A stretch of DNA of 62,818 bases. Origin: Brotaphodocola catenula (GTDB lineage: Bacteria; Bacillota; Clostridia; Lachnospirales; Lachnospiraceae). Positions 3 to 34,697 of this stretch are shown here, one piece after another; the first letter of the stretch is position 1; each line of letters starts with the position of its first letter. The position numbers and the translations under genes were made by a program. The notes under the pieces were generated by a model. The model saw only the letters and a list, made by a program, of their open reading frames with translations, made no database searches and was not told where the DNA came from. The stretch spans positions 1-62,818 of the forward strand of contig JAJEPU010000020.1 of the NCBI GenBank assembly GCA_020686985.1. Reading direction: 5' to 3'.

Positions 3-197
3 AATTTAAATCTTGCAGAATTTGTAAATGCATTTAAATCTGCATCTTCTCGAAACATTAGAAAACAGTTTTCTGAGAAACTGAAACCTTATTACCGGAA
101 ACCCTATTTTTGGAGTTTGAGTTATTTTATCGGAACGGTCAGTGACCGAACAAGTACTGCGGTAAGGGAATATATTAAGAATCAAAAAAATGAATGA
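3..197 (+). CDS. IS200/IS605 family transposase TnpA, C-terminal part
   Basis: The reading frame is open from the window edge to a TGA at 195-197 and gives about 64 residues. It contains the signature C-terminal segment of Y1 (HUH) IS200 transposases: FKSASSRNIRKQF, then PYFWSLSYFIGTV, then a helix ending YIKNQKNE. In this family the last helix carries or neighbours the catalytic tyrosine; the Tyr in EYIKNQ fits that position. The catalytic HUH motif would lie upstream, outside the window, so I cannot tell whether the gene is intact. A hairpin about 30 bases downstream looks like the element's right end. Confidence 0.85.
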   Translation, partial: NLNLAEFVNAFKSASSRNIRKQFSEKLKPYYRKPYFWSLSYFIGTVSDRTSTAVREYIKNQKNE

Positions 198-19751: not shown

Positions 19752-20939
19752 ATGGAAAAGTTACTGTTTACATCTGAGTCTGTAACCGAAGGCCATCCGG
19801 ACAAAATGTGCGATGCGATTTCAGATGCGATTCTGGATGCTCTGATGGAGAAGGACCCGATGAGCCGTGTAGCATGTGAGACTTGCTGTACGACCGGTCT
19901 TGTTATGGTAATGGGAGAGGTTACCACAAATGCATATGTCGATATTCAGAAAATTGTTCGTGAGACGATTCGTGAGATCGGATATGACCGTGCAAAGTAT
20001 GGTTTTGACTGCGATACCTGTGGCGTTATGGTTGCACTTGACGAGCAGTCTTCCGATATCGCTCTCGGCGTTGACAAGGCACTTGAGGCAAAGGAAAATG
20101 CAATGGATGACGATGCCCTCGATGCAATTGGTGCAGGAGATCAGGGTATGATGTTCGGTTATGCAACGAATGAGACCGAGGAGTACATGCCGTACCCGAT
20201 CGCTCTGGCTCACAAGCTTGCAAGACGTCTGACTGAGGTTCGTAAGAACGGAACCCTTCCGTATCTTCGTCCGGATGGAAAGACCCAGGTAACCGTAGAG
20301 TACGATGAGAACGGCAAGCCGATCCGTCTGGATACCGTTGTTCTTTCTACCCAACATGATGAGAATGTAACTCAGGAGCAGATTCATGAGGATATCCGCA
20401 AGTATGTATTCGATGTAGTTCTTCCGTCCGGAATGGTAGATGAGGAGACGAAGTACTATGTAAATCCGACCGGTCGTTTCGTAATCGGTGGACCTCACGG
20501 AGACAGCGGTCTGACCGGACGTAAGATTATCGTAGACACCTACGGTGGATATGCTCGTCACGGCGGTGGCGCATTCTCCGGAAAGGACTGCACAAAGGTA
20601 GACCGTTCCGCTGCATACGCAGCTCGTTATGCAGCAAAGAACCTTGTTGCAGCAGGACTGGCTGACAAGTGCGAGATCCAGCTTGCATATGCAATCGGTG
20701 TTGCACATCCGATGTCTGTTCGCGTAGATACCTTTGGAACCGGAAAGCTCAGCGATGAGAAACTGGTTGAGATCGTTCGTGAGAACTTTGATCTGCGTCC
20801 GGCAGGAATCATCAAGATGCTTGACCTTCGTCGTCCGATCTATCACCAGACCGCAGCTTACGGTCACTTTGGAAGAACCGATGTTGATCTGCCGTGGGAG
20901 AGAGTGGACAAGGTAGAGGCTCTGAAGAAGTATCTGTAA
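19752..20939 (+). CDS. metK: S-adenosylmethionine synthase
   Basis: 395 residues, normal length. It makes S-adenosylmethionine from methionine and ATP. Signature motifs: [20 protein letters not shown] at the N-terminus, [12 protein letters not shown] in the middle, and the phosphate-binding [25 protein letters not shown] precedes ATG 19752. It is monocistronic, controlled by the SAM-I riboswitch directly upstream and closed by a strong terminator. Confidence 0.98.
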
Positions 20940-21123: not shown

Positions 21124-21262
21124 GGCACCGACGGTGAGTAAAGTCGTGCAACCGCGCTTTCGCTCCGGGTTCAACGTAACGGTGCATAAGGCTGTAAAGG
21201 ACACAGCCTAAGCACCGACGTTTCACACGGGGTTGACACGATCTTTCTCACCTTACGGCGCT
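21124..21262 (-). repeat. structured intergenic element, family E, copy 1
   Basis: About 130 bases forming one long stem with an inner arm. Read on the minus strand, outer GGTGAG...CTCACC encloses CGTGTCAACC/GGTTGCACG, then an inner arm GGCTGT-GTCCTTT-ACAGCC. It aligns end to end with copy 2 at 25974-26092 and shares AACCCCGTGTGA and GAACCCGGAGCGA blocks. Arm sequences differ between copies while pairing is kept. Function unknown: it may be a non-coding RNA or a miniature mobile repeat. Confidence 0.7.
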
Positions 21263-21340
21263 AAGTTTATGTGTTGCACAAAGGAATTTTTTTGATACTT
21301 TGTGTTTGAAATTGGAAAAATTTGATCTTATCATTGTATT

Positions 21341-21376
21341 ATACGGGATTTTCCGTTTAGAAAATTCCTACCCGCG
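21341..21376 (+). repeat. partial copy of the 53.9-kb three-way-junction element
   Basis: ATACGG, then hairpin GGGATTTTC-CGTTTA-GAAAATTCC, then TACCCGCG. It matches 53952-53987 (ATACGG, GGCATTTTC-AGTTCA-GAAAATGCC, TACCCGTG) almost base for base with the hairpin kept. The outer arms seen at 53.9 kb are missing. From 21377 to 21604 I see only the leader of the next gene. Confidence 0.55.
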
Positions 21377-21604
21377 ATAATATCCTTTACAGCGCAGGTT
21401 TATTGTGCGTGTATTCGTCTGAATTTTGGTTTGAAGCATTGGTATTTATGTTGTTTATCATGCGTATATTTGGCTAGATTTCGGGGAGGAGATGTGATAA
21501 CGTATAATGGAATGATAAAAAATATATAACTCAGAATAGATGTCCTCTTCGGTGAGGATGTTAATTGGGGTTGGGGTACTCGTGGCGAAGGAGGAGAAAA
21601 GACG

Positions 21605-22804
21605 ATGAAATACGATTTTACGACCGTGATGGATCGGCATGGAAAAGATGCGATTGCAGTGGATTTGCTTGGAAAAGAGGGAGCACCGGGGGCGCCGAAG
21701 GAGGGCTTTGATGCGATCCCGATGTGGGTGGCAGATATGAACTTTGCGACGGTTCCGACTGTTCAGCAGGAGATGATTGAGCGGGCAGGTCATCCGGCAT
21801 TTGGATATTTTGATCCGCGCGAGGAGTATTTTACTTCGATTATCAAGTGGCAGGAGACACGAAATGGAGTGAAGGGACTTGAGAAGAAACACATCGGATA
21901 TGAAAACGGTGTGCTCGGCGGACTGATCTCTGCGGTCTCAGCGTTCAGTGCACCGGGAGATGCGATTCTGCTCCACAGCCCGACTTATATCGGATTTACA
22001 AGATGTATTGAGAATTCAGGACGTAAGATTATTCTCTCTCCGTTAAAGAAAGATGAGAATGGAGTCTGGCGGATGGATTATGAAGATATGGAGGCGAAGA
22101 TTCAGAAGAATCGAATTCATCTGGCAGTTTTCTGTAATCCGCATAATCCATGTGGTCGTGTGTGGGAAAAAGAGGAGATTGAGAAGGCAATGGAAGTGTA
22201 CAAGCGCAATTCTTGCGTCGTGATTTCCGATGAAATCTGGTCAGATCTCATGATTAATGGAAGCAAACATACGTCAACCCAGTCGGTCAGCGAGGATGCG
22301 AGAAATCGAACGATCGCACTCTATGCGCCGTCAAAGACGTTTAACCTTGCAGGGCTGATCGGTTCTTATCACATCATTTACAATGACTATCTGAGAGATC
22401 GTGTTCTGGCGCAGAGCAGTAAGTGCCATTATAATGAGATGAATCTGATGAGTATGTATGCGCTGATCGGTGCTTACCGTCCGGAGGGATATGAGTGGGT
22501 TGATGAGTTGTGCGAGGTGCTGTCAGAGAACGTCAATTATGCGTATGACTATATCCAGGATCATTTCGATGGTGTGGAGGTGTCCAAACCGCAGGGAACT
22601 TATATGCTGTTTCTCGACTGTACGAAATGGTGTGAGAAGCATGAAGAGAGCCTCGATGAGCTGCTCCGGGCTGGATGGGATGTCGGAGTTGCATGGCAGG
22701 ATGGACGCCCGTTCCACGGTTCTTGCAGTATCCGCATGAATTTGGCGTCCCCGAAGAGCCAGATTGAGAAGGCATTTGAGCGTTTGAGTCAGTATGTGTT
22801 CTAA
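21605..22804 (+). CDS. MalY/PatB-type aminotransferase (C-S lyase)
   Basis: 399 residues, a fold-type I PLP enzyme. The PLP lysine lies in YAPSKTFNLAGL; NPHNPCGRVW and the SDEIWSDL aspartate supply cofactor contacts; IPMWVADMNF near residue 38 is the N-terminal MalY/PatB motif. Such enzymes cleave cystathionine or cysteine conjugates to a thiol, pyruvate and ammonia, and some double as regulators (MalY). AAGGAGG precedes ATG 21605. Being two genes from metK hints at methionine/sulfur metabolism, but the spacing shows separate transcription. Confidence 0.92.
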   Translation: MKYDFTTVMDRHGKDAIAVDLLGKEGAPGAPKEGFDAIPMWVADMNFATVPTVQQEMIERAGHPAFGYFDPREEYFTSIIKWQETRNGVKGLEKKHIGYENGVLGGLISAVSAFSAPGDAILLHSPTYIGFTRCIENSGRKIILSPLKKDENGVWRMDYEDMEAKIQKNRIHLAVFCNPHNPCGRVWEKEEIEKAMEVYKRNSCVVISDEIWSDLMINGSKHTSTQSVSEDARNRTIALYAPSKTFNLAGLIGSYHIIYNDYLRDRVLAQSSKCHYNEMNLMSMYALIGAYRPEGYEWVDELCEVLSENVNYAYDYIQDHFDGVEVSKPQGTYMLFLDCTKWCEKHEESLDELLRAGWDVGVAWQDGRPFHGSCSIRMNLASPKSQIEKAFERLSQYVF

Positions 22805-22862
22805 TCCGGCTGTTCTCTGATGTGTATTTTTGAAAACAATGAGAAAAATTGTCATTTACTGT

Positions 22863-22890
22863 TTGATTTTTTACTCTTCACTGATATAAT
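22863..22890 (+). promoter_or_regulatory. promoter of the [FeFe] hydrogenase gene
   Basis: TTGATT (22863-22868), 16-base spacer, TATAAT (22885-22890), about 95 bases before the start codon. Confidence 0.65.
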
Positions 22891-22989
22891 ACAAATGAGA
22901 AAAATAATCGTTAAAAAATAAACATGAGTAACTGCTCAGTATCTTTGCAGTTACGAACAGGGTCAATTATCAGGAGGAGAGAGAAAAGA

Positions 22990-24513
22990 ATGAGAGGAGT
23001 CGAGACACGAATCCAGGAAATCCGTCATAGAATATTCAGAGAGGTAGCCCGCATGGCTTATCATACCGAGTGGCCGGTAGACAAGCGTATTGAGGAACTG
23101 CCGTACAAGATCATTCCGGGAGAGGTAGGAAACTTCCGAAATGATGTATTTCTGGAGAGAGCAATCGTTGGAGAGCGTCTTCGTCTGGCAATGGGTCTTC
23201 CGGCAAGAGGTGCAGCAGAGCATGCACCGATTTCTGACAACATTGAGGCAGCTGACCGTCCGGAAACTTATTACACCCCGCCACTGATCAATGTCATCAA
23301 GTTTGCATGTAATGCCTGTGCACCGAAGCGCGTAACGGTGACAGAGGGATGTCAAGGCTGTCTGGCACATCCGTGTGTGGAGGTATGTCCAAAGAATGCA
23401 GTCAGCCTTGACCGCACAACCGGTCGTTCTCATATTGATCAGGATGCCTGCATCAAGTGTGGTCGTTGTGCAACCGTCTGCTCTTACAATGCAATCATTG
23501 TTCAGGAGCGTCCGTGTGCCGCTGCCTGTGGAATGGATGCAATCGGATCTGATGCAAATGGTAAGGCAGATATCAATTATGAGAAGTGCGTATCTTGTGG
23601 TCAGTGTCTTGTAAACTGCCCGTTTGGAGCAATTGCCGACAAGTCCCAGATCTTCCAGGTTATCCGTGCAATTCAGTCTGGTGAGCGGGTATATGCAGCG
23701 GTTGCACCGGCATTCGTAGGTCAGTTTGGACCGAAGGTAACTCCGGGAAAACTGCGTGCAGCAATGAAGGCACTCGGATTTACGGATGTATTTGAGGTTG
23801 CAATCGGAGCGGATCTGTGCGCAACTCAGGAGGCAATTGACTTTGTAAATGAAGTTCCGGAGAAACTGCCATTCATGGCAACTTCCTGTTGTCCGGCATG
23901 GTCAATGATGGCAAAGAAGCTTTTCCCGAAGAATGCAAACAGCATCTCGATGGCATTGACCCCGATGACTCTGACAGCAAGACTGATCAAGCGTCATAAT
24001 GAGAATGCAAAGGTAGTCTTTATCGGACCGTGCGCAGCAAAGAAGCTCGAGGCAATGCGTACTGATATCCGAAGCGATGTGGACTTCGTTCTGACCTTTG
24101 AGGAGATGGCGGGCGTCTTTGATGCAAAGCATGTAGATCTCGAGACGATTGAGGAAGATCCGAACGGTGTCAACGATGCTTCGACCGATGGACGTAACTT
24201 CGCAGTTGCAGGCGGTGTTGCACAGTCTGTTGTCAATGTCATTAAGGAAAAGTTCCCGGATAGAGAGATCAAGATCGCAAATGCAGAGGGTCTGAAGGAT
24301 TGCCGAAAGCTGTTGACGATGGCAAGTGCTGGAAAGTACAATGGCTATCTGCTTGAGGGTATGGCATGTCCGGGTGGATGTGTGGCAGGTGCAGGTACGA
24401 TGCAGCCGATCAAGAAGTCTCAGGTTGCAGTCAACCAGTACGCTTCCAAGGCAAACCATAAGACATCCAATGAGACCGAGCATGTAAAAGAGCTTGATAA
24501 GCTGGTAGATTAA
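22990..24513 (+). CDS. monomeric [FeFe] hydrogenase, group B-like
   Basis: 507 residues. The N-terminal half has several Fe-S binding segments (CQGCLAHPCVEVCP, CIKCGRCATVC, CVSCGQCLVNCP, plus CAAACG). The C-terminal half has H-cluster motifs: P1 TSCCPAW (C300, C301), P2 GPCAAKK (C348) and P3 EGMACPGGCVAGAG (C460, C464). P2 has Gly where group A enzymes have Met (MPCxxK), which fits the group B monomeric enzymes of Clostridia. It should use ferredoxin and protons/H2 in the cytosol. AGGAGGAG at 22972-22979 selects ATG 22990 over the in-frame ATG at 22924. Its maturases are encoded at 56.8-61.2 kb. Confidence 0.92.
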   Translation: MRGVETRIQEIRHRIFREVARMAYHTEWPVDKRIEELPYKIIPGEVGNFRNDVFLERAIVGERLRLAMGLPARGAAEHAPISDNIEAADRPETYYTPPLINVIKFACNACAPKRVTVTEGCQGCLAHPCVEVCPKNAVSLDRTTGRSHIDQDACIKCGRCATVCSYNAIIVQERPCAAACGMDAIGSDANGKADINYEKCVSCGQCLVNCPFGAIADKSQIFQVIRAIQSGERVYAAVAPAFVGQFGPKVTPGKLRAAMKALGFTDVFEVAIGADLCATQEAIDFVNEVPEKLPFMATSCCPAWSMMAKKLFPKNANSISMALTPMTLTARLIKRHNENAKVVFIGPCAAKKLEAMRTDIRSDVDFVLTFEEMAGVFDAKHVDLETIEEDPNGVNDASTDGRNFAVAGGVAQSVVNVIKEKFPDREIKIANAEGLKDCRKLLTMASAGKYNGYLLEGMACPGGCVAGAGTMQPIKKSQVAVNQYASKANHKTSNETEHVKELDKLVD

Positions 24514-24552
24514 TTTGAAATGAGACAGGCGAATAAAGGAATTATATAAATG

Positions 24553-24594
24553 GGGCGGAAGATTCTTATAAATCGAATCTTCCGCCCTGTTTTT
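24553..24594 (+). terminator. intrinsic terminator of the hydrogenase gene
   Basis: A perfect 13-bp stem, GGGCGGAAGATTC (24553-24565) / GAATCTTCCGCCC (24575-24587), is followed by TGTTTTT. It sits only 7 bases before the 3' end of the convergent VanZ-like gene and could serve both directions. Confidence 0.93.
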
Positions 24595-24600
24595 ACATTA

Positions 24601-25092
24601 TCAGGCGTTTTTCTTAAAAAGAGTACTGACGATCAGCGAGAATGTAACAATCGATGAACCAATGCTGTCGATCATGACATCGGTAATTCTCGCGGAGCGG
24701 TCCGGAACGAAATACTGGTGGAATTCGTCGGTGCAGGCATAGCAGACTGTGATCAGAAATGCCGTCAGCGCCCATCTCTTTCGAGAAAATTTGCGTGGAG
24801 AAAGACCGAGAAGAACAGTCAGATAGAGGATTGTGTACTCGGTCACATGGGCAGTTTTTCGCAGAAGGAATTCTAAGCGGTCAAGCAATAAGAGATTCGG
24901 TTCTGCATTTGGATCGCTCGGGAAAAAGCGAGAGATCGCAAGAAGGATCTCATGGAGAAGAGATCCACTTAATTTAGAGGAATCTTCTCCGGGCTGACTG
25001 GAAAAGAAAAAGATGAGTCCAGCCATGATGAGGGCAGGAATCCAGAAGCGGAATTTCGAAAATGTTAAAGTTCTTTTTTTATTTGTTGTCAT
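24601..25092 (-). CDS. VanZ-like membrane protein
   Basis: 163 residues with about four hydrophobic segments and VanZ signatures: FWIPALIMAGLIFFFSSQPG at the N-terminus, KTAHVTEYTILYLTV, and CYACTDEFHQYFVPDRSARITDVMIDSIGS. VanZ itself raises teicoplanin resistance; most homologues have no known role. The start is ATG 25092 behind AAGGAC on the minus strand; an upstream in-frame TTG at 25101 is less likely. Divergent from a second VanZ-like gene. Confidence 0.88.
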   Translation of the reverse strand: MTTNKKRTLTFSKFRFWIPALIMAGLIFFFSSQPGEDSSKLSGSLLHEILLAISRFFPSDPNAEPNLLLLDRLEFLLRKTAHVTEYTILYLTVLLGLSPRKFSRKRWALTAFLITVCYACTDEFHQYFVPDRSARITDVMIDSIGSSIVTFSLIVSTLFKKNA

Positions 25093-25371
25093 GAAAATCA
25101 AAGTCCTTTCTTATTATCCATATACAGCAATAATTATTGTTCATATATTGTACAAACTGGAATGGATTTTTGTACAGCAACAACATTATAACATGGATTA
25201 CAGAAATGTCCTCTTTTTTCTTGCGTTCCGTTAGTTGGTATGATAGGATGAGTTACAGTTTACAGGAGATGTTGGCATGACACAAGAATATGCCAAGGCA
25301 CATTCTTTTTGTGAAACAGCTAGTCGGATGAAGCAATAGGGAAAATGGATACGAAAGGTAAGGTGGAAAAC

Positions 25372-25908
25372 ATGTGGAAGTATGTTTGGAAAGATATTCT
25401 GGAGCAGGCGTGTTTTCTTCCTGTGACAGCTTTTTTGGCGCTGATTTATTATAGTCTCAGACGGGCGATTGTTAAGAGAAGAGGAATGTTAAACCGAGAA
25501 ACAAAGAAACAGCTTTTTTGGAAATCGTGCATGGCAATGTATCTGATGATGCTCGTGCAGATCACTCTTCTTGAGCGTGAGGCTGGATCAAGAACAAAGG
25601 TCAGCCTGGAACTGTTTGAGACCTTTGGTGGTCCGATGGCAAATGCTTTTGTTGTAGAAAATGTCTTTCTTTTTATGCCATATGGATTCCTCCTCCCTCA
25701 AATTTGGCGAGGTCTTGGTAAAATGAGGATTTCCCACCAAATGCTTGTATGTACAATAATTGGATTTTTCAGCAGTTTAATGATCGAATGTACTCAGCTA
25801 GTGACACAGAGAGGATTTTTTCAGGTCGATGATATTATGACAAATACAATCGGAATGGTTTGTGGCTGGACTGTTTACCAGATTGTTCGTAAAATAATAT
25901 TTAAGTGA
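25372..25908 (+). CDS. VanZ-like membrane protein
   Basis: About 178 residues with 4-5 hydrophobic segments. The core matches VanZ: FVVENVFLFMPYGFLLP, FFSSLMIECTQLVTQRGFFQ, VDDIMTNTIGMVCGW. AAGGTGG precedes ATG 25372; ATG 25345 is a possible alternative start. It is a distant paralogue of the neighbour on the minus strand; function not inferable. Confidence 0.85.
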   Translation: MWKYVWKDILEQACFLPVTAFLALIYYSLRRAIVKRRGMLNRETKKQLFWKSCMAMYLMMLVQITLLEREAGSRTKVSLELFETFGGPMANAFVVENVFLFMPYGFLLPQIWRGLGKMRISHQMLVCTIIGFFSSLMIECTQLVTQRGFFQVDDIMTNTIGMVCGWTVYQIVRKIIFK

Positions 25909-25973
25909 TAGATTTATTGTGTTTGTAATTTTTTTCATGGTATATTTTTTATCAGTATTATCTCAGCGACGAG

Positions 25974-26092
25974 GGCGAAAAAGATCCTGCAAACCCGTGT
26001 GAGACGCTGGTCCTTAGATCGTGTATTTTACGATCTTACGCACCACTGCGTCGAACCCGGAGCGAGAGCGAGTTTGTAGGACTTCTTTCGCC
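25974..26092 (+). repeat. structured intergenic element, family E, copy 2
   Basis: The outer stem GGCGAAA.../...TTTCGCC continues with TCCTGCAAAC/GTTTGTAGGA. An inner arm has ACGC/GCGT, TGGT/ACCA and GATCGT-GTATTTT-ACGATC. It aligns with the reverse strand of 21133-21252 along its whole length. It ends 42 bases before the scfA promoter, so it is not in the scfA leader. No ORF or ribosome binding site lies inside it. Confidence 0.7.
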
Positions 26093-26206: not shown

Positions 26207-26353
26207 ATGAAGCACGTTAAGACTTTAACCAATAAGACCCTGAAGGAGTCCATGAAGAAGGGCGGATGTGGCGAGTGCCAGACTTCCTGCCAGTCTGCAT
26301 GTAAGACTTCCTGCACCGTAGGCAACCAGGCTTGCGAGAACGCAAACAGATAA
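26207..26353 (+). CDS. scfA: SCIFF ribosomal peptide precursor (six cysteines in forty-five)
   Basis: A 48-residue peptide: leader MKHVKTLTNKTLKESMKKGG, then a core with exactly six cysteines (C21, C24, C28, C32, C36, C43) and the family pattern CGECQTSCQSACKTSCTVGN. In this RiPP system the radical SAM enzyme ScfB links a core cysteine to a nearby residue by a thioether bond. AGGAGG at 26194-26199 precedes ATG 26207. The maturase gene follows after a terminator. SCIFF is nearly universal in Clostridia and its biological role remains unsettled. Confidence 0.97.
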   Translation: MKHVKTLTNKTLKESMKKGGCGECQTSCQSACKTSCTVGNQACENANR

Positions 26354-26467: not shown

Positions 26468-27868
26468 GTGATTCATCAGTATAAAAATAATGGTTACAAC
26501 ATCGTGATGGATATTGCCAGCGGATCAGTTCATGTTGTGGACGATGTCGTTTATGACGCAATTGCCATGCTTGAGCCGGCAATCGGTGAGATCGAGTCCG
26601 CTATGCCGATCCCGGCAGAAGCCCGCGCAGAGGCAAAGCAGAAGCTGTCTGAGATATATCCGGAGGCAGATGTTGAGGAGGCTCTGAGCGATGTTCAGGA
26701 GCTGATTGACGCAGAGGAGCTGTATACAAAGGACATTTATCACAACTATGTGATGGATTTCAAGAAGAGAAAGACCGTCGTGAAGGCGCTGTGCCTGCAT
26801 ATCGCGCATGACTGTAATTTAGCATGCCGTTATTGCTTTGCGGAGGAGGGCGAGTACCACGGTCGTCGTGCCCTGATGAGCTTTGAGGTCGGCAAGAAGG
26901 CTTTGGATTTCCTGATTGCAAACTCCGGAAACCGAAGAAATCTGGAGGTCGATTTCTTCGGCGGAGAACCGCTCATGAACTGGAACGTTGTAAAACAGCT
27001 TGTTGAGTACGGTCGTTCCCAGGAGGAGCCACACAACAAGAAGTTCCGCTTTACTCTGACGACAAACGGTGTACTCTTAAATGATGAGATCATGGAGTTC
27101 TGTAACCGTGAGATGGCGAACGTTGTCCTAAGTCTGGACGGACGAAAGGAAGTCAACGATCGCATGCGTCCGACGAGAAACGGTCACGGAAGCAGTTACG
27201 ACATCATTGTTCCGAAGTTCCAGAAATTTGCAAAGAGCCGTGAGGACAGAGATTACTATGTGCGCGGAACCTTTACCCGCAATAACCTCGATTTCAGCGA
27301 GGATGTAAAGCATTACGCAGATCTCGGATTTGAACAGCTTTCCATGGAGCCGGTTGTCGCAGCACCGGAAGAGCCGTACTCGATCCGCGAGGAAGATCTC
27401 CCGCAGATTCTTGAGGAGTACGATCGCCTTGCAGTAGAGTACTTAAAGCGCAGGAAAGAGGGAAAAGGATTTAACTTCTTCCACTTTATGATTGATTTGA
27501 GCCAGGGACCGTGTGTGGCAAAGCGCCTCTCCGGTTGTGGTTCAGGAACGGAGTACCTTGCAGTTACTCCGTGGGGAGATTTCTATCCGTGCCATCAGTT
27601 CGTCGGCAATGAGAAGTTCCTCATGGGAAATGTGGATACCGGAATCGTTCGCGAGGACATTCGCGATGAGTTTAAGCTCTGTAACGTATATGCAAAGGAA
27701 AAATGCCGGGATTGCTTCGCTCGCTTCTATTGCAGTGGTGGATGCGCAGCAAATTCCTACAATTTCCACGGAAAAATCACGGACACTTATGACATCGGAT
27801 GCGAAATGCAGAAGAAGAGAATTGAGTGTGCGATTATGATTAAAGCTGCGCTTGCTGACGAGGACTAA
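26468..27868 (+). CDS. scfB: SCIFF peptide thioether maturase, radical SAM/SPASM
   Basis: 466 residues. An N-terminal peptide-binding (RRE-like) region spans about residues 1-90. The radical SAM cluster is CNLACRYC (C116, C120, C123), followed by the FFGGEPLMNW motif. The C-terminal SPASM domain carries the auxiliary cluster cysteines (CHQF, CNVYAKEKCRDCFARFYCSG, then GC). It forms the thioether cross-link in the ScfA peptide using S-adenosylmethionine. The start is GTG 26468 behind AAGGAG. secDF, tgt and yajC follow in the same direction. Confidence 0.96.
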   Translation: MIHQYKNNGYNIVMDIASGSVHVVDDVVYDAIAMLEPAIGEIESAMPIPAEARAEAKQKLSEIYPEADVEEALSDVQELIDAEELYTKDIYHNYVMDFKKRKTVVKALCLHIAHDCNLACRYCFAEEGEYHGRRALMSFEVGKKALDFLIANSGNRRNLEVDFFGGEPLMNWNVVKQLVEYGRSQEEPHNKKFRFTLTTNGVLLNDEIMEFCNREMANVVLSLDGRKEVNDRMRPTRNGHGSSYDIIVPKFQKFAKSREDRDYYVRGTFTRNNLDFSEDVKHYADLGFEQLSMEPVVAAPEEPYSIREEDLPQILEEYDRLAVEYLKRRKEGKGFNFFHFMIDLSQGPCVAKRLSGCGSGTEYLAVTPWGDFYPCHQFVGNEKFLMGNVDTGIVREDIRDEFKLCNVYAKEKCRDCFARFYCSGGCAANSYNFHGKITDTYDIGCEMQKKRIECAIMIKAALADED

Positions 27869-34280: not shown

Positions 34281-34358
34281 GGCGCGCCTCCGGCGAAATA
34301 AGGTGTGCAAACTCGTTCTCACACGGGTTTGCCCATCCTTTTTTGCCGGAGGCGCGCC
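34281..34358 (-). repeat. structured intergenic element, family E, short copy 3
   Basis: A perfect 14-bp stem, GGCGCGCCTCCGGC (34281-34294) / GCCGGAGGCGCGCC (34345-34358), encloses a core that reads GCAAACCCGTGTGAGA, ACGAGTTTGC on the minus strand. The same GCAAACCCGTGTGAGA block is in copy 2 at 25989; the inner arm of the longer copies is missing. It lies between the wall-binding gene and the ribosomal operon promoter and could also stop transcription. Confidence 0.7.
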
Positions 34359-34439: not shown

Positions 34440-34697
34440 CTGTGACATGATAGCGATGAAACGAGAGGTTGCTACCTAGGATGAGGTAGGTTTTCCGCGG
34501 AGCGAATGTCAAGTTAGGAAACTGACGACAAGTCACTGTACAAATTGAACAGCTGTAATTAAGATCGAGATTAAGTATCGAGAGATAGAGTAATGCAGTA
34601 ACGCAGTGTGGGGTCCAGGGCGACACACACGGAGAAGTGTACAGTCACCGCTTGTCGTACTTCGAATGAAAAGTGCGAAAAGGAGGCGACTTTTTTT
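34440..34697 (+). promoter_or_regulatory. structured 5' leader of the S10 operon
   Basis: About 258 non-coding bases. Local hairpin CTACCT-AGGATG-AGGTAG (34472-34489). Long-range pairing joins CGACAAG (34526-34532) with CTTGTCG (34651-34657) and ACTGTAC (34535-34541) with GTACAGT (34639-34645), giving a branched fold over the whole leader. S10 leaders of Firmicutes are known autoregulatory sites; the ligand protein here is inferred, not shown. It ends with AGGAGG for rpsJ. Confidence 0.65.

Follow-up and report, generated by a model that had tools for sequence, protein, structure and literature searches.

A folded intergenic repeat of Lachnospiraceae with a conserved cap and variable, paired arms

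Results

The window (the whole stretch of 62,818 nucleotides of Brotaphodocola catenula DNA analysed here) carries copies of a palindromic element whose shape is under selection, the arms differing in sequence yet remaining largely paired. The explanation that we prefer as a whole, with a probability of about 0.47, is a non-autonomous Lachnospiraceae repeat that would work as a folded single strand, likely RNA, with a conserved cap recognised in trans.

Copies in the window

The copies, here called E1, E2 and the third copy, lie among their neighbouring genes as follows.

19752..20939, (+): ORF that we take to be metK (S-adenosylmethionine synthase), with a SAM riboswitch upstream; it lies 3' end to 3' end with E1
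21125..21261, (-): E1 plus its outermost pair GCGCCG/CGGUGC, minimum-energy fold
21133..21252, (-): E1, full element of 120 nt, with arms, P2, core hairpin and GNRA side hairpin
21156..21163, (-): E1 GNRA side hairpin, GC-GAAA-GC
21190..21208, (-): E1 apical hairpin, GGCTGT-GTCCTTT-ACAGCC, which is helix 8 of the diverse-copy alignment
21605..22804, (+): ORF on the 5' side of E1, presumably a PatB-like aminotransferase
25345..25908, (+): ORF on the 5' side of E2, presumably VanZ-like
25974..26092, (+): E2, full element of 119 nt
26062..26069, (+): E2 GNRA side hairpin, GC-GAGA-GC
26207..26353, (+): neighbour of E2, presumably a six-cysteine (SCIFF-like) peptide, read by eye
26468-27868: ORF after the peptide gene, presumably the radical SAM maturase of the peptide
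~34281..34358, (-): third copy, a deletion derivative with long arms GGCGCGCCTCCGGC/GCCGGAGGCGCGCC and no core hairpin, ends placed by eye

The original prediction of two full copies that align end to end was correct and understated. E1 and E2 are identical in 89 of 120 columns with one gap, and the three arm replacements described between them are all present and all paired in both. When both strands of the window were scanned with E2 without gaps, the highest scores were 119 (E2 itself), 80 (E1) and 60 (its own complement), the remaining scores forming a chance tail from 50 downward (mean 29.7, sd 4.7). The fold energies of E1 and E2 beat 200 of 200 shuffles (z of -8.7 and -5.1, respectively). 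Moreover, three findings go beyond that prediction, namely the third copy, matched by the model at 34292-34347 (28.4 bits), the outermost pair of E1, whose counterpart elsewhere is an outer arm that often reads GCTCCG/CGGAGC, and the model matches outside the window (below).

Conservation of the cap and pairing of the arms

The cap is conserved in sequence and the arms mainly in pairing. We compared a diverse set of 96 copies taken by hand, from which host copies, cut-off matches and some partial matches were dropped. In an alignment of diverse copies, which was fitted to the structure so that its pairing and GNRA counts lean that way, 41 of 43 pairs are altered on both sides, double changes fill 1292 cells (381 in shuffles), pairing is kept in 92.4% of 4112 cells, and the GNRA side hairpin occurs in 98 of the 100 rows having a loop, as counted on alignment columns. 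The stems of further copies, which were expected to hold their pairing, also did so in 24 near-gapless host copies whose alignment was not fitted to structure (96.2% of 1031 cells). Covariation was seen there too; on the measure of further pair types, these host copies did not exceed shuffles (226/500). Together with the compensations found at orthologous loci (below), covariation in the diverse and host copies supports the proposed selection on structure.

The arms are asymmetric between strands, the ratio of G.U to A.C being 10:1 for host copies and 30:7 for diverse ones, counted on the 24-25 of 50 host and 75-80 of 96 diverse copies that fitted the pattern. The excess fades when flanks of 20 nt are included (18:9 and 56:39), and it is not significant in the diverse set when the entire structure is counted (63:49). 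Both this arm excess and the GNRA loop speak for a single folded strand, perhaps RNA. A d(GCGAAAGC) hairpin is also very stable as DNA, a point against the preferred explanation.

Short forms of 57 nt are explained by a loss of 62 nt between AACCCG repeats, and we therefore do not treat them as a separate family.

Distribution and copy number

Further copies, whose absence would have counted against the original prediction, were found in the host, the genus and the family. Model R1 was built from the host copies E1 and E2, so diverged copies in other genomes may be missed. It has E1 as its top genome match (144.7 bits), and 48 of the 51 matches in the host genome lie outside the window; by form, 36 are full-length, 5 have an extra hairpin, 1 is a variant and 9 are short deletion forms. 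In the genus the distribution is patchy, R1 matching 13 of 24 genomes including the host.

A broader model matched 133 of 299 Lachnospiraceae genomes, 119 of them with a best E of at most 1e-6 and the other 14 above that value. In a class-wide sample of 291 genomes, at least ten of them Lachnospiraceae, 7 matched, and all 7 belong to this family. Many members of the family carry the element, often with dozens of copies per genome, and since 12 candidates per genome were scored in the family- and class-wide searches, copy numbers from these are lower bounds. Some species have tandem arrays and many near-identical copies, and head-to-head pairs occur in some genomes. Family-wide, the centre of the element is conserved and its ends are variable. 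Phages searched with E1, plasmids searched with one copy from genome G245 and viral contigs searched with the cap pattern all gave no match, which led us to discard a phage or plasmid origin.

Orthologous loci

Comparison of orthologous sites reveals insertion, decay and deletion of copies: copies occupy sites that are empty at related loci, and a number of them decay or are deleted. Vertical inheritance of an ncRNA gene family, with frequent loss and no mobility, is an unlikely account of this pattern. It would suit the genomes G245 and G511, since 11 of 12 G511 copies have an orthologous copy in G245 and caps are conserved in nine of ten pairs. Against it, at 12 of 20 related loci (a total that includes G245 and G511) two genes overlap exactly where G245/G511 carry a copy, only 2 of 13 fetched copies of genome G656 share flanks with fetched G245/G511 copies, and some species have the arrays and many near-identical copies mentioned above.

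In nine G245/G511 pairs, 10 of 658 cap positions were changed, fewer than in the 5' flank of ten pairs (135/1307, p=4e-15) and in the 3' flank of the same nine pairs (67/1391, p=1.5e-4). The tenth pair, L304/L312, has caps that are 55/73 alike, far below the other nine, and its cap may be a replacement. With this pair included, the cap (28/731) continues to show fewer changes than the 5' flank (p=6e-8) but not fewer than the 3' flank (74/1551, p=0.33). These alignments support a slower change of the cap than of its surroundings in retained copies, as seen in one species pair.

Double-compensated pairs occur at orthologous loci, 7 at L350/L357 and 5 at L304/L312. Over twelve orthologous pairs, with the stems defined by the predicted fold of one copy, 29 altered stem pairs were broken, 22 stayed paired through a single change, 14 were double-compensated and 17 were lost to gaps. 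Both the comparison with the 3' flank and the number of broken pairs weaken the case for selection in place.

We also considered how arms and caps could have arisen. Formation of new arms from target DNA at each insertion was not supported, as the junctions read that lack the element show no arm sequence by eye, and some copies from separate loci share 85-91% identity over 107-109 nt, a stretch that extends into the arms. Homogenisation of the cap by gene conversion was judged unlikely, because in nine of ten pairs the orthologous caps agree at 98.5%, while matches between different loci reach about 69-91%.

Candidate movers

The element could be REPIN-like and move as a single-stranded DNA fold through a Y1 (HUH) transposase, either RAYT or IS200/IS605 in type. 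The head-to-head pairs would agree with this, and the strand asymmetry of the arms is also compatible with single-stranded DNA. GTAG is the foot of REP sequences, and in 8 of 27 copies of relatives GTAGC stands 5' of the hairpin at a distance of up to 30 nt; in other, partly overlapping sets it is rare, occurring at 1 of 50 copies in the host, 5 of 96 in the diverse set and 1 of 24 in G245/G511. Y1_Tnp genes and the element did not co-occur across 20 genomes: G004, G005, G014 and G018 have elements without a Y1 match, and G001, G002, G009, G013, G017 and G020 have Y1 without an R1 match. Moreover, no element was present in 27 Y1 loci together with their flanks of up to 1.5 kb (loci were obtained for 27 of 37 Y1 matches), and the readable Y1 proteins resemble ordinary IS200/IS605 TnpA by eye. 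With no co-occurrence, no elements at Y1 loci and few GTAGC sites in most sets, we set this mover aside as improbable.

Still less probable is a passenger structure within ordinary MITEs that DDE transposases move through terminal inverted repeats. Genome G023 does have head-to-head pairs inside a larger repeat with both ends approximately ATACCTTNTCGTGC (by eye), but such common ends were not seen by eye at the other copies inspected, and a conserved centre with variable ends is the reverse of a MITE. No target-site duplication was evident at one G245/G511 empty site.

Neighbouring genes

Orientation was counted with simple ORF calls on 50 of the 51 host matches and 27 copies of relatives, 3 and 4 copies falling within a called ORF that was taken as spurious. 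The 3'-side gene is antisense to the element, thus convergent with its end facing the element's 3' end, in 56 of 77 cases (p=8e-5), and the 5'-side gene is sense in 36 of 71, which is unbiased. That the element serves the adjoining gene as a bidirectional terminator or 3'-UTR stabiliser is very improbable: copies do lie near gene 3' ends and fold strongly on both strands, but most 3'-side genes run antisense to the described strand, which bears the arm G.U excess, the 5'-side genes are sense in just about half of cases, and no general T-run is seen by eye at element ends.

A scan for promoter-like sites 5' of the element gave no enrichment. Short tandem repeats are enriched 3' of the element relative to the 5' flank in the host (p=0.001) and weakly elsewhere (p=0.035); retroposon-like tails were dropped as a candidate, and the repeats are noted as a curiosity.

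Discussion

The element is seemingly uncatalogued. As the original prediction allowed for, no Rfam 15 family reaches gathering score over E1 or E2, where searches with E up to 10 gave chance-level matches only, and full-text literature searches found no description of it. It behaves like BOX or BIME repeats yet fits no family tested, BOX being compared by description only.

REP/BIME and REPIN repeats, which are linked to RAYT, are palindromic and extragenic and occur in pairs and tandem arrays. The element shares these traits, with a GTAG-like foot in some lineages, but it is longer and branched, and no link to a Y1 transposase was found. In integron attC sites structure prevails over sequence, one strand is folded and length varies. 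The same seems to hold for the element, whose copies are in contrast scattered in both orientations.

BOX repeats of Streptococcus pneumoniae are small, modular intergenic repeats that fold strongly, are more frequent between convergent genes and are probably non-autonomous, with a middle module present or absent (PMC3049150). Going by that description, the element is likewise small, intergenic, modular and strongly folding, tends to sit at convergent gene ends, is probably non-autonomous and has an optional middle module. It differs in its host family, its conserved cap, its largely locus-specific arms and its GNRA side branch, and its module loss, unlike that of BOX as described there, is consistent with slippage between AACCCG repeats spaced by 62 nt. 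MITEs are characterised as short, non-coding, highly base-paired and present in many copies (PMC10969869). The element matches this outline; it departs from it in its conserved centre and variable ends, and its copies showed neither consistent terminal repeats nor an evident target duplication. Palindromic candidate RNAs of the human microbiome are structured and come from gut bacteria, 20 of 250 not being predicted terminators (PMC8040213). The element is also a structured palindrome of gut bacteria; the examples named in one section of that source are Bacteroidetes, unlike the element, and its tables may overlap.

The original prediction left a choice between a non-coding RNA class and a mobile palindrome. 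The element has features of both, and the mobilising enzyme that the second option invoked was not found. In our preferred reading, the single-stranded form, most likely RNA from the described strand, would fold into a long hairpin. A trans-acting factor would recognise the sequence-conserved cap, which the arms would merely present as the recognition part, and an enzyme working in trans would at times spread the copies. Those that are retained may affect transcripts where convergent genes end, through processing, stability or termination. A bolder version, which we hold only tentatively and consider doubtful, is a Lachnospiraceae class of host-retained structured RNAs with tens of copies per genome, each having a double-stranded arm of its own that presents the shared protein- or RNA-binding cap; an enzyme recognising the cap rather than terminal repeats would spread them.

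The element occurs in about 40% of the sampled genera of Lachnospiraceae, a main gut-bacterial family. With many copies per cell, one conserved cap and different arms, it constitutes a natural experiment whose orthologous copies can be compared between species, and the recognition of the cap and the reason why bacteria keep interspersed palindromes become directly testable questions.

A folded repeat in the window and the host genome

Alignment bore out the full-length match that the original prediction had described between two copies of the element, E1 (21133-21252, reverse strand) and E2 (25974-26092, forward strand). Both share one fold, with a long arm, a P2 stem in two parts and a core hairpin whose internal loop is UUA/UUA and whose apical loop is GUNNUUU; the junction bears a short GNRA hairpin. 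Membership of a known Rfam family was not supported, as Rfam 15 gave no credible match over E1 or E2; the same search of the window detected a SAM riboswitch, an S10 leader and four tRNAs. A short third copy lies directly upstream of the S10-Clostridia leader.

Features in the window
6-185, plus strand: Y1 transposase fragment, IS200/IS605-type, at the contig edge
19514-19653, plus strand: SAM riboswitch, before metK (Rfam 15 search)
34281-34358, minus strand: third copy of the element, a deletion derivative
34448-34531, plus strand: S10-Clostridia leader (Rfam 15 search)

Further copies do exist: in the host genome (3.3 Mb), R1, the model built from E1 and E2, gave 51 matches at E<=1, 36 of them 117-122 nt long and 9 of 56-60 nt without the core hairpin. 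Five host copies of 161-162 nt each carry one additional hairpin, and one 122-nt copy holds only this hairpin. The module, GAGGAAGCGCCAGTGACGCTTCCGCTGA in five host copies (L065-L069) whose arms differ, sits at the P2/GNRA junction, as does a variant of it in another host copy (L073). Relative to the 119-nt form, the 57-nt forms lack 62 nt, a length identical to the distance between the two AACCCG repeats on either side of the core, and are therefore explained by slippage. Short imperfect tandem repeats were also seen immediately 3' of host copies (e.g., L062, L023 and L059); in the host such repeats are more frequent in the 3' than in the 5' flank, an enrichment that is weak elsewhere.

Distribution of the element

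When 40 relatives were searched with R1, matches were obtained in 12, every one in the host's genus, and in none of 17 genomes from other genera. A broader model, built from 104 matches, detected the element in 133 of 299 Lachnospiraceae genomes (essentially one per genus), with a best E<=1e-6 in 119. In a class-wide draw, 7 of 291 genomes matched at E<=1e-4, all seven from Lachnospiraceae. A pattern scan of named genomes matched at least 111 stretches; among the matches listed (80 records), the names were those of Lachnospiraceae or their genera, or broad labels (e.g., Clostridia, Eubacteriales, Clostridiaceae, Clostridium or Eubacterium sp.). No match was found in viral contigs scanned with the pattern of the cap (the sequence-conserved core and GNRA hairpins), in phages queried with E1, or in plasmids queried with one copy from G245, a genome of another genus (g223).

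Selection on the structure

The structure of the element is under selection, as the paired substitutions between E1 and E2 had suggested. In an alignment of 101 distinct rows, fitted to the structure, 92.4% of 4112 stem cells are paired, double changes occur at 41 of 43 pairs, and both sides have changed in 1292 cells; shuffling gave 381 such cells (sd 17), and sliding the partners gave no more than 274. For 24 host copies aligned almost without gaps, double-change cells numbered 114, compared with 34.5 (sd 4.8) shuffled and at most 17 slid; further pair types did not exceed shuffles in this host alignment (226/500).

Evidence in situ is mixed. Twelve orthologous pairs, drawn from three species of a genus other than the host's, comprise 597 unchanged stem pairs, 14 doubly compensated and 22 kept through a single change; pairing is broken in 29 more, and gaps remove another 17. 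The compensated pairs cluster at the more diverged sites (seven at L350/L357, five at L304/L312).

Conservation differs between cap and arms. The side loop is GNRA in 98 of the 100 rows having one, the apical loop GTNNTTT in 83/103, and the internal loop TTA on both strands in 97/104; by contrast, what the arms keep is mainly pairing. By eye, caps in G245 and G511 are similar across loci and arms of ~20-45 bp mostly unrelated, and at several loci in other genera the paired arms extend into the flanks. At the orthologous locus L303/L307, the caps agree at 70/73 positions and the arms largely differ, each still self-complementary.

Nature of the folded strand

If the strand as written folds, an excess of G.U over A.C is expected. 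Isolated G.U:A.C pairs in the arms stood at 10:1 for host copies and 30:7 for the diverse set, becoming 15:2 and 45:22 with 10-nt flanks, and 18:9 and 56:39 with 20-nt flanks. Over the whole structure, the ratio was 27:6 in the host and 63:49, not significant, in the diverse set; a C.A position that recurs in the core is a probable contributor. The folded form may instead be a single DNA strand; the arm G.U excess, taken with the GNRA loop, favours RNA.

Candidate movers

A Y1 (HUH) transposase, of RAYT or IS200/IS605 type, is a rival candidate as mover. Its presence or absence is independent of that of the element, which occurred in none of 27 Y1 loci examined out of 37 Y1 matches. A REP-like GTAGC foot is found in 8/27 copies from relatives, 1/50 from the host, 5/96 from the diverse set and 1/24 from G245/G511. 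One relative from the host's own genus (G023, L216-L230) holds many copies of a larger repeat that ends in inverted repeats of ~ATACCTTNTCGTGC and contains two element units head to head; in the other lineages whose copies were inspected, no such ends were seen. Further IS200/IS605-type Y1 fragments, besides that at 6-185, lie on or close to the ends of other contigs, so the assembly is probably interrupted by an IS.

Genomic position

Copies are mostly intergenic, 3/50 in the host and 4/27 in relatives falling within a called ORF. In 56/77 cases (host 37/50, relatives 19/27), the 3' end of the element faces that of a gene running in the opposite direction, at a median distance of 69 nt in the host and 62 nt in relatives. 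As the 5' neighbour shows no orientation bias (sense in 36/71), the positional bias is tied to the convergent gene end.

Gain, loss and retention at orthologous sites

In a g223 operon, an overlap of ~4 nt between two genes is seen in 12 of 20 loci; G245 and G511, which are among the 20, carry a copy between the two genes. At the following junction both genomes have copies, and G656 has what reads as a decayed remnant. At the EPI-DEAC junction, where G245/G511 carry the element, L259, L265 and L274 have a different repeat (GATTCAAAGTCATG...CATGACCTTGAAGA and more). Another G245 copy lies within a 183-nt segment missing from G511; G656 and G628 have a short, element-free junction there, and the site shows no clear target duplication. 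A third compared site looks like a deletion in G511 with arm bases left behind; at a fourth, G245 has lost an internal stretch between GCTTA repeats. In G149 the element forms tandem arrays (L239, L240 and L241; periods 164, 187 and 137 bp), and head-to-head pairs are present in several records.

Eleven of the 12 G511 copies have an orthologous copy in G245, the twelfth being the site of the G245 internal deletion; of the four others among the 15 G245 matches, one has no counterpart in G511 and another is deleted there. Across nine of ten G245/G511 pairs the cap changed at 10/658 positions, versus 135/1307 in the 5' flank (ten pairs; p=4e-15) and 67/1391 in the 3' flank (same nine pairs; p=1.5e-4). 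Including the tenth, L304/L312, the cap (28/731) remains less changed than the 5' flank (p=6e-8) but not significantly less than the 3' flank (74/1551, p=0.33). Selection on the cap in situ is thus likely for this one species pair, with L304/L312 treated as an exception.

Relation to known repeats

REP, BIME and REPIN repeats are among the nearest analogues of the element. So too are pneumococcal BOX elements (PMC3049150) and MITEs (PMC10969869). Another paper describes 250 candidate RNAs of palindromic form, of which 20 are not predicted to be terminators (PMC8040213). Full-text literature searches returned no description of the element among the matches listed. The element is a real, large family of structured interspersed repeats, apparently undescribed so far, and there is a fair chance that it constitutes a new RNA class.
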